Below are positions 52,757 to 58,109 of a DNA stretch of 64,000 nucleotides, in pieces (positions within the stretch are counted from its first letter, which is position 1; each line of letters opens with the position of its first letter). The DNA lies in NCBI RefSeq assembly GCF_002105535.1, contig NZ_CP015848.1:3514926-3578925 (forward strand), in the 5' to 3' direction. This stretch comes from Magnetospirillum sp. ME-1 (GTDB lineage Bacteria > Pseudomonadota > Alphaproteobacteria > Rhodospirillales > Magnetospirillaceae). The notes below the pieces were generated by a model. That model searched no databases. It saw nothing but the letters and a program-made list of their open reading frames with translations, and was not told the DNA's origin. The position numbers were made by a program, and so were the translations under genes.

Positions 52757-53944
52757 TCAGCCGTCGGCCGGCAGCAGCACGGTTACCGTGGTGCCCAGGC
52801 CGGAGGTCGAGGTCACATGGATGGAACCGCCATGGGCCTCGATCATCTTGGCGCAGATGTAGAGGCCCAGACCGATGGATGCCTCTCCCGCCGTGCCTGT
52901 CACCCCTTTGCGGAAGGGGTGGAACAGGGTCTCGAGCCTTTCGGGCGGCATGCCGATGCCCGTATCGGTCACGTCGATACGGGCCTGTGGGTGGCCATCC
53001 GCGTCCTTGCCCGCGGACACGGCCAGGGTGATGGACGAGTTCGAGTGGGAGAACTTGACGGCATTGCTCAGCAGGTTGGTCATGACCTGCTCGATCTTGA
53101 GGGCGTCCACCGCGGCCCACACGGGCGGAACCGGCGGAAACAGGATGGTGATGGATTTCTGTTCGCCGAGGACCGAGGTCAGCGCCGCGACCCTTTGCAT
53201 CAGTTCGGTCAGGTCGCAGGGCTGGCGGTTGAGGGCGAGGTGCCCGCTCTCGATGGCCGACAGCGACAGCACATCCTCGATCAGGGCCAGCATGTAGCGG
53301 ATGGATTGGTGGATATTGCCCACATACTTCCTCAGCCTCGGATCGCTGTCGGGGGCAAGCAGCATGTCGAGGATTTCCGAATATCCGGAAATCACCGACA
53401 GCGGCGTGCGCAGATCGTGGGCCAGCACGCCGAACAGCCGGTTCTTCTGGTCGTTGGCGGCGGTCAGCCGGGCATTGGCCTTGGCCAGCTGGCGCTGGGT
53501 GTTGACCAGTTCGCTGTTCAGCTCGCTCATGGATTCGTAGATGGCGCCGCTGGCCGGTCTGGCCGAGCGCTCCTTGAGCAGGCGGCGCAGCAAGGTGACG
53601 TGGTCGCTGTTCAGCCGCGCCAGATCCTGAATCAGCAGATCGCCATCGCGGTCGGCGGGAATGGCGGCCACCGCCAGCCCCGCCTCGATCACCGCTCCCG
53701 ACAGGCGATAGGGCTCGAGCCGGCCGTTGGTCTCGATGGTCACTTCCCAGTCATAGGCGCTTTCATCCCGGCGCAGGGCGGCGAGGAAGTCGAATGCCTT
53801 GGAAAAGCATTCCCTCGACACCACGGCGGCCAGGGGCTGTCCCACACGGGCGTTGGCATGGGGCTGTCCGCCTTCATGCAGGACCTCGGTGATCATGCCG
53901 TCATGATCGCACAGCAGGATCAGCCCCGATCGCGATGGCGCCAT
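52757..53944 (-). CDS. Soluble sensor histidine kinase coupled to B12-binding protein
   Basis: Histidine kinase of 395 aa without membrane helices. Residues about 1-100 form a PAS-like domain and 105-168 a coiled coil. The H-box is LFGVLAHDLRTPLSVISGYS with His176. The HATPase shows MTNLLSNAVKFSH, DVTDTGIGMP and the G-box-like IGLGLYICAKMIEAHGG. The start at ATG 53944 shares one base with the stop of the cobalamin-binding gene (TGATG), which argues that the two proteins act together, with the B12 protein as the likely input. No response regulator is adjacent. Convergent with the SDR gene. Confidence 0.9.
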   Translation of the reverse strand: MAPSRSGLILLCDHDGMITEVLHEGGQPHANARVGQPLAAVVSRECFSKAFDFLAALRRDESAYDWEVTIETNGRLEPYRLSGAVIEAGLAVAAIPADRDGDLLIQDLARLNSDHVTLLRRLLKERSARPASGAIYESMSELNSELVNTQRQLAKANARLTAANDQKNRLFGVLAHDLRTPLSVISGYSEILDMLLAPDSDPRLRKYVGNIHQSIRYMLALIEDVLSLSAIESGHLALNRQPCDLTELMQRVAALTSVLGEQKSITILFPPVPPVWAAVDALKIEQVMTNLLSNAVKFSHSNSSITLAVSAGKDADGHPQARIDVTDTGIGMPPERLETLFHPFRKGVTGTAGEASIGLGLYICAKMIEAHGGSIHVTSTSGLGTTVTVLLPADG

Positions 53945-54972
53945 CACCAGCCCCCCCGTTCCGCCAGCCGGACGGCATCGTCGGCATTCTGGGCCGTGCC
54001 GTCGGCCCCCAGGCGGCTCCACAATGTCTCATCGATGTTGAAGGGATAGCCCCCCACCAGGATGGAAACCTTGGTGCCGAAGCGCTGGCGGGCGGACGTG
54101 ATCAGATTGGCCACCAGCCCCACATGGGAGGTGAGCGTGGCCGAGACGGCGATAAGTTCGGCGTTCACGGATTGCGCCATGTCGAGCGTCTCGCCCACCG
54201 GGGCGTTGGCTCCGAGATAATGGCTGTCCCAGCCGCTCATCTCGAAGCAATCGGCCACCATGCGCACGCCGATCTCGTGCAGTTCACCGCTGACGCAGCA
54301 GGCCACCATGGAGCGGTTCTTGGCCTCGGCCCCGAAGATGCGGGGATAGAGCTGGGACATGATCCCCTGGGTGACGGCGGTAATGTAGTGTTCCTGGGCC
54401 ACCGAAACCCGGTTCATCTGCCACAGGCGGCCGACTTCGCGCAGCACCGGCTGGAAGACGTCGAGATAGACGGTCTTGACGGGCATGCCGTCTTCCACGG
54501 CGTTCAGAATCAGGGCGGCGGCCGCGTGCCGGCGGCAGCCGAGCAGGGCGTCCAGGTATTGCCGGGCCAGATCCGCCGCGGGGCCGATCTGCGTCAGATG
54601 GCCGGGGGGCTCGGACGGCATGAAACGCAGCTGCTCGCGGGCCGAGGCGATCAGGTCCCGGGCGGCCTGGGCCGAACCGTTCTCCAGGTCCTTGGGCAGG
54701 GCCAGGGAGACGGCGGCAAGGGCCGCGTCGATCTCGGTTTCCGGCAAGCCCTGACCGGCCAGAAGGGATTTGCGCCAGCCGACATAGTGAAGGAACAGCG
54801 CCGGCGAAGCGTGGCACAGCGCCTCGGACAGATACAGCAGCATGGCGCGCAGCTCATCGGCATCGGCCGACAGGCCGCCGGCCTTCATGATCCCCATGGC
54901 GTCGGCGGCGATTTCCGCGCGCCTGTTCCCGATGATAGCCGGATTGTTCAATAGGCACCCTCCAAACGTCAT
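53944..54972 (-). CDS. Cobalamin-binding sensor protein with W-x9-EH photoreceptor motif
   Basis: Soluble protein of 342 aa. After a helical N-terminal region (1-130), a B12-binding helical bundle (about 135-215) contains Trp184 and Glu194-His195, the W-x9-EH motif that cradles adenosylcobalamin in CarH/LitR-type photoreceptors. The Rossmann B12 domain has ELHEIG at 230-235 (usual D-x-H-x2-G, with the ligand His232 kept), then SATLTSH and VGGYPFN. There is no HTH, so it is not itself a CarH repressor. Coupled by overlap to a histidine kinase, it is a candidate light- or B12-responsive input. Start ATG 54972; Shine-Dalgarno weak. Confidence 0.87.
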   Translation of the reverse strand: MTFGGCLLNNPAIIGNRRAEIAADAMGIMKAGGLSADADELRAMLLYLSEALCHASPALFLHYVGWRKSLLAGQGLPETEIDAALAAVSLALPKDLENGSAQAARDLIASAREQLRFMPSEPPGHLTQIGPAADLARQYLDALLGCRRHAAAALILNAVEDGMPVKTVYLDVFQPVLREVGRLWQMNRVSVAQEHYITAVTQGIMSQLYPRIFGAEAKNRSMVACCVSGELHEIGVRMVADCFEMSGWDSHYLGANAPVGETLDMAQSVNAELIAVSATLTSHVGLVANLITSARQRFGTKVSILVGGYPFNIDETLWSRLGADGTAQNADDAVRLAERGGW

Positions 54973-56561: not shown

Positions 56562-56707
56562 GATGTCCGGATGTGACTGTCCCTTGATGCATACTTAGCG
56601 GTCCCGCCGCCATCGGGCAAGAGGCGGGGTATTTAGGGACTGGAACGGGGCGTCGCTTCGGCGTACGGTGCCCTCCGATTGACCAGAGTCACATGGGGAA
56701 TCCACGC

Positions 56708-57406
56708 ATGACGCAGGCGCTCGACCGCGAGGTGCTGCTGCAACTGCAATTCGCGCCGCTGTTCACCGGCCTGGCCGAGAAGGACGTGCGCGAACTGCTG
56801 GACGGCGCCGAATTGCTGGTCCTGGGGCACGAGCACCTGCTCTACCGCGAGGGCGAGACGGTCAGCCGATTCTACGTGGTGCTGGACGGCCATGTGGAGC
56901 TGTCGCTGGACGTGGACGGCAAGAAGAGCGTGGTCGAGGTGGCGCGCCGCTCCACCGTGCTGGGCGACGCCGCCATGTTCGGACCGGGGCGCTACATCAT
57001 GACCGCCCGGGTGCTGACCGGGGCGACCCTGCTGGCCATTCCCGCCGGCTCGTTCCGCGCTCGCCTGGAAGAGCGCCTGGACATCACGCTGCACATGCTG
57101 ACCACCATGAGCTTCCGCCTGCGCATGCTGGTCCGCCAGATCGCCGAGCTGAAGTTGAAGACCACCGCCCAGCGCCTGGGCAGTTTCCTGCTGACCATGG
57201 TCGAGGCCGAGGACGGCAAGGCCGAGCTGCGCTTTCCCTACGACAAGAAGCTGGTGGCCGACCAGCTGGGCATGAAGCCGGAAAGCCTGTCGCGCGCGCT
57301 GGGCAAGCTGGGGCGCATCGGGGTCGAATCCCTGCCCGACAATCTGGTGGTGATCGCCGACGTGGCGCGCCTGCGCGAATTCTGCGCCGAAGAAGAAGGC
57401 ATCTGA
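56708..57406 (+). CDS. Crp/Fnr family regulator 1
   Basis: Transcription factor of 232 aa: N-terminal cyclic-nucleotide-binding-fold domain (about 15-130, with GETVSRFYVVLDGHVELSL), a dimer helix, and a C-terminal HTH (KLVADQLGMKPESLSRALGK). The FNR-type N-terminal Cys cluster is missing, so it is not an Fe-S FNR; it fits NnrR/Dnr-like or heme/NO-sensing branches. ATG 56708 is preceded by GGGGAA; ATG 56693 is an alternative. It is 4 bp upstream of a paralogous gene, so the two are co-transcribed, and sits ahead of the DUF2249/hemerythrin operon. Confidence 0.88.
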   Translation: MTQALDREVLLQLQFAPLFTGLAEKDVRELLDGAELLVLGHEHLLYREGETVSRFYVVLDGHVELSLDVDGKKSVVEVARRSTVLGDAAMFGPGRYIMTARVLTGATLLAIPAGSFRARLEERLDITLHMLTTMSFRLRMLVRQIAELKLKTTAQRLGSFLLTMVEAEDGKAELRFPYDKKLVADQLGMKPESLSRALGKLGRIGVESLPDNLVVIADVARLREFCAEEEGI

Positions 57407-57410
57407 CGCC

Positions 57411-58109
57411 ATGGCCCTCAGCCCCGCCGAACTGGAACTCGTCGCCAAGGCTCCCCTGCTGGCCGGCCTGTCGCCCGCCGACCTCGCGCTGCTGATGGAC
57501 GGTGCCCATTCCGCCACGTACCCCGAGACCGAGCTGCTGTTCAGCCAGGGCGACAAGGCCGACCGCTTCTTCGTGCTGCTGGAGGGACGGGTCAACGTCT
57601 TCGCCCTGACCGAGACCGGCGACCAGTCTATCATCGAGGTGTTCGACCCCATCGTCACCTTCGCCGAGGCCGCCATCTTCTCGTCGGGCATCTTCCCGCT
57701 GAACGCCGAGGTGATGGCCGGCTCGAAGCTGGTGCACGTGCCGGCCCCGCTGTTCCTGAAGCGCCTGGCCGACAACCGCTCGCTGGGCCTGTTGCTGCTG
57801 GGCGGCCTGTCCCAGTGGCAGTTCCGCCTGGTTCACGAGATCAGCGAGCTGAAAAGCAAGTCGCCGGGCCAGCGCCTCGCCACCTTCCTGCTGGCGCTGG
57901 CCGCCAAGGCGGGGGCGGATACCGCCGGACGGGTGCGCCTGCCGCTGACCAAGGCGGTGCTGGCCAGCCGTATCGGCATCGCGCCGGAAAGCCTGTCGCG
58001 CGCGCTCAACCGTCTCAAGGCCTATGGCGTCGAGACCCATGGCCGCGAGGTGGAGATCACCGATATCGAGGCCCTGCGCCGCATGGTGCGTGAGGGCGGC
58101 GGGGAATAG
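57411..58109 (+). CDS. Crp/Fnr family regulator 2
   Basis: Paralogue of the preceding gene, 232 aa with the same layout: cNMP-fold domain (GDKADRFFVLLEGRVNVFAL), dimer helix and HTH (AVLASRIGIAPESLSRALNR). The recognition helix shares the PESLSRAL pattern with its neighbour, so the two likely bind similar sites. It lacks an Fe-S Cys cluster. It begins 4 bp after the first gene and precedes the DUF2249 gene by 120 bp. Two adjacent regulators with near-identical recognition helices might heterodimerise or respond to different effectors on shared promoters. Confidence 0.88.
   Translation: MALSPAELELVAKAPLLAGLSPADLALLMDGAHSATYPETELLFSQGDKADRFFVLLEGRVNVFALTETGDQSIIEVFDPIVTFAEAAIFSSGIFPLNAEVMAGSKLVHVPAPLFLKRLADNRSLGLLLLGGLSQWQFRLVHEISELKSKSPGQRLATFLLALAAKAGADTAGRVRLPLTKAVLASRIGIAPESLSRALNRLKAYGVETHGREVEITDIEALRRMVREGGGE

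Follow-up and report, generated by a model that had tools for sequence, protein, structure and literature searches.

Two overlapping genes on the minus strand of a 64,000-nucleotide stretch of Magnetospirillum sp. ME-1 (contig NZ_CP015848.1, positions 3,514,926 to 3,578,925; referred to here as the window) encode a photocobilin-type protein, the putative sensor (hereafter the sensor), and a soluble histidine kinase. The reading proposed for them, which is given a probability of about one half, is a two-gene switch acting in trans, where the sensor would perceive green light through adenosylcobalamin (AdoCbl) and act on the separate kinase. The TGA of the sensor and the ATG of the kinase have one base in common (TGATG), as noted in the initial annotation of this DNA, and the overlap suggests translational coupling. 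The same annotation had not recorded that residues ~12-130 form a photoglobin domain; the sensor is more than a bare cobalamin (B12) protein. With a photoglobin and a cobalamin domain in one chain, the sensor was assigned to the photocobilin kind. Genomes and loci compared with the window are given as G and L numbers.

The cobalamin half was identified by Pfam as B12-binding_2 (PF02607, E 7e-16) and B12-binding (E 2.9e-19). The AlphaFold2 model of the sensor has a mean predicted local distance difference test score (pLDDT) of 90.3 and a predicted template modelling score of 0.86. In the PDB the photocobilins 8j2x/8j2w rank first by phmmer (E 5e-27), and photocobilins are among the closest structures by Foldseek, where the top match is CtMerR (8jbs, E 9.8e-11). 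Three features described for photocobilins were identified: the B12-binding cap with its Rossmann domain, W-x(9-10)-EH, and E/D-x-H in the form E230-L-H232. Trp184, Glu194-His195 (W-x9-EH) and His232 lie exactly where they had been annotated, all of them in columns (16 in total) that do not vary across the 22 sequences of alignment A2 (which omits L021/L023, similar to L020/L022, and L026, L027 and L028), and judged from these columns the motif is not a product of chance. Excluded from counts were L040 (a duplicate of L053/L012), the near-identical L042/L043, and L003 and L009, which are the window itself. The light signature of cobalamin domains (SignatureFinder), formed by GxxW, EH, GxxH and GxxxP (PMC11796333), was found complete at G181-W184, E194-H195, G229-H232 and G254-P258. 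No DNA-binding domain, MerR-type included, was identified in the Pfam scan at E<=0.01, in agreement with the annotation. The best NCBIfam match is CarH, with 67.7 bits against a cut-off of 400; membership of CarH was rejected, the sensor having neither the MerR domain nor the bis-His residue (Gln185). The genome carries CobO-type and PduO-type adenosyltransferase genes, so that synthesis of AdoCbl would be possible in the host.

The first ~130 residues of the sensor are, by sequence profile, a photoglobin, a homologue of phycobiliproteins and of the photocobilin bilin domain; fold searches with the full model were taken up by the cobalamin part. The phmmer search of the PDB also gave a weak additional alignment (i-Evalue 0.46), in which residues 33-92 of the sensor are matched to SasPcob's C-terminal bilin domain. 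A leave-one-out profile, with the row of the window removed, gave these 130 residues 59.7 bits (E 2.8e-15, database size 177,635), against 6.1 bits for the best of 1000 shuffles (992 reported). The profile of 16 N-terminal domains matched SasPcob (5e-8) and allophycocyanin (9.3e-7) in the PDB and also, via its last helices, a designed helical repeat protein (1.7e-6) and further designed helical proteins. The CxxD of the relatives aligns onto the CLRD of allophycocyanin, CXRD being the chromophore motif of phycobiliproteins and CXQD that of photoglobins (PMC10151467).

The kinase comprises 395 amino acids counted from the overlapping ATG, the mechanical open reading frame (ORF) extending 26 codons upstream to a GTG, and contains HisKA (8.4e-18) and HATPase_c (3.2e-26). 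It had been annotated as a PAS kinase, of which the catalytic part was recovered by Pfam and the PAS part by structure only: residues 1-135 were without a Pfam hit up to E 0.1, and the Pfam PAS models gave none up to E 1, whereas the AlphaFold2 model of the N-terminus (mean pLDDT 76) presents a PAS topology followed by helices, with the PAS domain 8px4 as best PDB match (E 3.8e-4). In 297 genomes of the order Rhodospirillales, residues 1-150 found 13 matches, ten of which lie no more than 50 bases from where a photocobilin match ends (by manual comparison of positions). E was <=9.5e-8 for nine of these and 5.8e-5 for the tenth, G246; no photocobilin was found around the three unlinked matches (6.8e-5 to 5.4e-4; L100-L102). 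The ten PAS-like partners are six kinases and four LuxR-type regulators, typed by Pfam in the window, L052, L054, L061, L056, L057 and L059, by a kinase-core match in L053 and L055, and by eye in L058. A profile of the PAS-like domain (A6) recovered the same ten, nine being its rows via fetched loci and the window the tenth, and added weak matches (6.1e-5 to 0.009) in G113, G086 and G097, each immediately after a photocobilin-type gene. The first kinase alignment (A4) contained L048, which lacks the PAS-like domain, and the model was built from A5, with L048 removed. Across the class the domain was found in one of 385 genomes, the window's own, a weak test of specificity because only 3 of the 385 contain a photocobilin match (E<=1e-30). 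In two loci (L056:6813-8568 and L059:4622-5989) a further regulator, containing receiver and LuxR domains, comes after the LuxR-type partner.

The PAS-like domain is followed by a conserved coiled linker with the motif YExxxxLNNELxNxQRxLAKxN. Partners that lack the domain can carry this motif as well, as seen in L060, in the kinase-receiver hybrid L048 and in the GGDEF protein L046. It is present too in a metagenome-assembled genome (MAG) labelled Methanomicrobiales (L045). A linker profile run on 260 genomes found seven places at E<=3.1e-13, each immediately following a photocobilin-type gene; the next match, G246 (0.0016), is a photocobilin partner, and nine more places followed at 0.0029 to 0.0088. 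An ORF upstream of the photocobilin in L039 (4794-5867) contains a linker-like match (7e-5, residues 18-44). At L041:2880-3500 the PAS-like domain and linker run, as judged by eye, into what looks like the beginning of a GGDEF sequence where the contig stops, and from this arrangement the domain may also drive cyclases.

Photocobilin matches of the full-length type (starting at query residue <=60) were 19 in the 297 genomes, including G067, whose neighbourhood is outside the partner counts. In the kind of conservation survey suggested in the annotation, a PAS-like partner is present beside 10 of the 19; judged from gene neighbourhoods, the pairing has a patchy distribution within the order and also occurs outside it. 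Among the other full-length loci, the partner kinase of G059 carries the linker but not the PAS-like domain, and G121 and G097 have weak PAS-like matches (0.004 and 0.003). In a set of ten loci, seven have a kinase frame directly downstream (L039, L040, L042-L045 and L048); the kinase of L039 contains neither PAS-like domain nor linker, and no partner was recognised downstream in L047 (Skermanella). The loci followed by kinases lie in MAGs whose labels include Armatimonadetes, Thiogranum, Betaproteobacteria and Methanomicrobiales. In the last of these (L045:5833-8152, label as given for the MAG) the photocobilin is accompanied by a kinase bearing both PAS-like domain and linker. In 14 pairs the distances of the cobalamin domain are correlated with those of the partner domain (Mantel r 0.81, P 2e-4), which points to a shared history of genes travelling together and not to contact. 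The annotation's idea of photo-cobalamin input to a phosphorelay is partly supported, by the light signature, the missing DNA-binding domain and the recurrent overlapping pairing with kinases, and is qualified by partners of other types, LuxR-type regulators and a GGDEF protein. The annotation called the architecture uncommon and possibly undescribed in function; the combination of photoglobin and B12 domain had already been described, with crystal structures (PMC10979010).

In the proposed mechanism the sensor would bind AdoCbl in the dark, with His232 as lower ligand, and dimerise with the adenosyl group held by W184 and E194-H195. Green light would break the Co-C bond, the adenosyl group would depart and the dimer would rearrange or split; the altered four-helix bundle would then shift its contact with the linker of the kinase and switch autophosphorylation. 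Position 185 is occupied by Gln, which is also described for SasPcob, where TtCarH has His (H132), and for this reason the light state is expected to be aquo/hydroxo-cobalamin and not a bis-His form. The bilin half would most likely add little biliverdin sensing and serve as a structural or allosteric cap. Contact of the AdoCbl domain with the linker is proposed by analogy with a photocobilin acting on a diguanylate cyclase in trans, with AerR-CrtJ and with AppA-PpsR. In vitro, a separate diguanylate cyclase is activated or inhibited when photocobilin domains are supplied in trans, depending on light and chromophore state (PMC10979010), and the SCHIC domain of AppA contacts the linker (Q-linker) helix between two PAS domains of PpsR (PMC9144470).

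The bilin site of the window photoglobin looks eroded in the alignment, which bears on whether the protein is a fully working dual-chromophore photocobilin, where bound biliverdin would sensitise AdoCbl to red light. From the phmmer alignment with SasPcob (offset from Trp61), Asp270 corresponds to Glu40 and Trp296 to Trp66. Among the 27 other rows with a letter at position 40, Asp is found in 20, His in 4, Asn in 2 and Gly in 1, Glu being exclusive to the window; ~11 residues are deleted just ahead of the motif and the Cys position is Asp. The replacement of the biliverdin-binding Asp by Glu is conservative, and AbDPcob, an accepted photocobilin, has His at this site, so that Asp270 is not strictly defining; its biliverdin occupancy, however, is ~20% (PMC10979010). 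Trp66 is retained, as in all rows of A2 (it is absent from two more distant ones, L026 and L028), in a domain modelled with confident helices; in SasPcob this Trp packs on ring D of biliverdin (PMC10979010). Relative to the cobalamin domain the window photoglobin is the most diverged of 17 sequences compared (mean residual -8.0 points, the next being -6.2), on a line fitted without the window from 120 pairs of 16 relatives, below which its single pairs lie by just 0.5 to 2.1 standard deviations. One haem oxygenase-family gene was identified in the genome above its cut-off (26.8 bits), but far from the gene pair, and a relative labelled Telmatospirillum has a divergent haem oxygenase gene beside its pair. 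Taken together, red-light sensing through biliverdin appears quite improbable in the window protein.

As separate observations, the haem oxygenase-family gene of the genome (L071:5893-9912) adjoins a 995-amino-acid PAS hybrid kinase with receiver and Hpt domains, and the gene in the Telmatospirillum-type genome (L053:5103-5666) lies divergent from the photocobilin-kinase pair, as a possible local source of biliverdin. Haem oxygenase as a general neighbour was rejected: by Pfam it was found among the scanned ORFs only in L053 (the same stretch as L040). A phmmer run with two haem oxygenases against the ORFs of 40 loci found none other beside a photocobilin, an insensitive check, since even between the two queries the match scores just 18 bits.

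In a second species of the genus (G058, contig 25) a pair occupies the same chromosomal slot, with the flanking SDR and MurI 95% and 89% identical to those of the window. The first gene of this pair has no photoglobin match and the second is formed by linker and kinase without the PAS-like domain; cobalamin domain and kinase are 65-66% identical to those of the window. The locus retains all four elements of the light signature, and linker residues 142-166 are identical at 24 of 25 positions, against 45 of 65 and 97 of 160 in the rest of the kinase. Nonsynonymous to synonymous rate ratios (dN/dS) are 0.34 for the cobalamin domain and 0.38 for the kinase, and 0.10-0.17 in four flanking genes. 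The dS of the pair is also higher (0.61-0.68 against 0.29-0.49), and part of the rate difference may therefore come from an older, xenologous split. Ten more SDR-gene regions from congeners, G152 among them, showed no pair; in some the far flank is missing. The higher ratios, this absence and a photoglobin eroded in the window and lost in G058 would suit a degenerating remnant with little function, an interpretation considered very unlikely: dN/dS is well below 1, and the cobalamin-site residues, the catalytic residues of the kinase and the linker are conserved. From these comparisons the pair is accessory and fast-evolving, and still constrained. Joint loss of photoglobin and PAS-like domain was rejected as a rule; G058 is a single instance, and in L046 and L048 the photoglobin match is complete beside a partner that lacks the PAS-like domain.

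Several points weigh against light control of the pair. The same cobalamin-site residues would suit the sensing of cobalamin availability or redox just as well. Not every partner has the PAS-like domain (L046, L048 and L060 lack it), and in five loci of family f19 (L062-L066, four from one genus and one from another) the photocobilin abuts a frame of ~1065 amino acids instead of such a partner, an AcrB-type RND pump at L062, the one scanned. G246 is barely ahead of the first unlinked match, G155 (6.8e-5); all ten strong A6 matches are rows of the query alignments, as are six of the seven strong linker matches for the linker profile (G025 is not), and the LuxR partners of G071 and G126 had no linker match at 0.01 in the 260-genome scan. 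A6 also found two kinases with ordinary Pfam PAS domains (G214, 4.2e-8, and G088, 6.5e-7), with no photocobilin on the contig stretch examined, and for this reason the PAS-like domain was taken as a diverged PAS. Finally, the pair evolves fast (dN 0.23 against 0.04-0.08) and the slot is empty in G152, the closest species by SDR (99%).

The first of these points leads to a sensor of AdoCbl availability or of redox or oxygen, where the fold would report the state of its cofactor to the kinase and light would not be the physiological input, as in SCHIC/AerR relatives with haem or hydroxocobalamin. This is judged unlikely, as all four elements of the light signature are kept, also at the congeneric locus without photoglobin, and identity is 15% to AerR/SCHIC and 29% to SasPcob. 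Membership of the AerR/PpaA/SCHIC group was likewise not supported, with 15% identity to AerR 7te2 and SCHIC 4heh and a kinase, not a PAS-HTH protein, as partner; a resemblance in mode of action persists. A mere chance neighbour with no relation to the kinase, be it a corrinoid carrier or a subunit of a methyltransferase, was set aside as extremely improbable: no methyltransferase was identified by Pfam among the neighbouring frames scanned, adjacency to a partner recurs at distant loci, and the best NCBIfam match is CarH, though far below its cut-off.

Returning to light control of the pair, a wider scenario for Magnetospirillum is put forward tentatively and with considerable doubt: a two-chromophore photocobilin system would have been reduced stepwise to a minimal green-light B12 two-component switch, with the linker helix as the docking site by which stand-alone photocobilins act on kinases, LuxR-type regulators and diguanylate cyclases. 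Along this path the bilin site would erode, as in the window, and photoglobin and PAS-like domain would be lost, as in the congener, with the AdoCbl domain, the linker helix and the kinase remaining. The features of the pair are collected in Table 1; two Crp/Fnr-family regulators in tandem were also identified near it (window positions 56693-58109).

Table 1. Features of the gene pair, in positions of the window.
Feature	Position	Strand	Basis
Photocobilin-type protein, 342 amino acids (photoglobin + cobalamin-binding domain)	53944..54972	-	ORF; Pfam; AlphaFold2; PDB relatives
Photoglobin (bilin-globin) domain, residues ~12-120, six helices in model	54613..54939	-	
Bilin motif D37-A-D-E40, apparently eroded; CxxD in many relatives	54853..54864	-	alignment
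Trp66, equivalent to SasPcob Trp296	54775..54777	-	invariant in 22 A2 rows
Four-helix bundle of cobalamin domain, residues 133-212	54337..54576	-	Pfam PF02607; helices in model
Trp184 of GxxW, adenosyl-stacking Trp (TtCarH W131, SasPcob W61)	54421..54423	-	sequence, alignment
Glu194-His195 (W-x9-EH)	54388..54393	-	sequence, alignment
Rossmann cobalamin domain, residues 217-342	53947..54324	-	
His232, predicted lower axial Co ligand (GELH: GxxH and E-x-H)	54277..54279	-	sequence, alignment
G254-ANA-P258, GxxxP element of light signature	54199..54213	-	sequence; signature from PMC11796333
TGATG stop/start overlap	53942..53946	-	sequence
Soluble histidine kinase, 395 amino acids; H176, N-, G1- and G2-boxes intact	52757..53944	-	Pfam HisKA, HATPase_c; boxes
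PAS-like partner domain, residues 7-96, without Pfam match	53657..53926	-	profiles, AlphaFold2 model
Conserved coiled linker, residues 133-168, proposed docking/transmission helix	53441..53548	-	alignment A7; order-wide scan

Among known systems, the sensor shares with the photocobilins SasPcob and AbDPcob (8j2w, 8j2x, 8j2y) the cobalamin domain with W-x-EH and E/D-x-H, the bilin-globin domain and, with SasPcob, the Gln after the Trp; it differs from them in the N-terminal position of the bilin domain, in the seemingly eroded bilin site and in an output that would be a separate kinase. AbDPcob is fused to a diguanylate cyclase, whereas the role of SasPcob and other stand-alone photocobilins is described as "less clear"; proteins with a C-terminal AdoCbl domain are mentioned as a group, and M. 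magnetotacticum MS-1 is one of four species that have several of the 506 hits (PMC10979010). With AerR-CrtJ, AppA-PpsR and PpaA-PpsR the pair has in common a cobalamin-type or SCHIC protein beside a regulator with PAS and linker helix, which in those systems it controls; aerR is cotranscribed with crtJ (PMC9144470), and AerR-CrtJ-type systems are among the structural matches of both sensor and partner. Here, however, the partner is a histidine kinase (LuxR-type in some relatives) instead of a PAS-HTH repressor, and the sensor contains the AdoCbl light signature and a photoglobin. The light signature is shared with CarH, LitR and CtMerR, without their MerR-type DNA-binding domain and without His at the bis-His position, also lacking in CtMerR. 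The N-terminal domain belongs with the phycobiliproteins and the bilin biosynthesis-associated globins, and is distinguished from them by the absence of Cys from the protein and by its attachment to a cobalamin domain.

A literature search on adenosylcobalamin photoreceptors, histidine kinases and light gave no title on such a pair. A photoglobin survey from 2022 reportedly associates photoglobins with B12 domains and with signal-transduction domains, and kinase neighbours may be included there. No publication joining B12-binding, photoglobin and histidine kinase was found, and the word "kinase" is absent from the main text of PMC10979010; that survey or the supplements of PMC10979010, with neighbourhood networks that cover M. 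magnetotacticum MS-1, may list kinase neighbours.

The overlapping pair, with its recurrent partner domain and linker, is a candidate native partner arrangement for stand-alone photocobilins and a place where contact between the two proteins can be sought. The congeneric locus in G058 is a natural deletion separating the B12 half from the bilin half. If the kinase is controlled by light in trans, the pair would constitute a B12-based green-light input to a phosphorelay and a compact optogenetic part.

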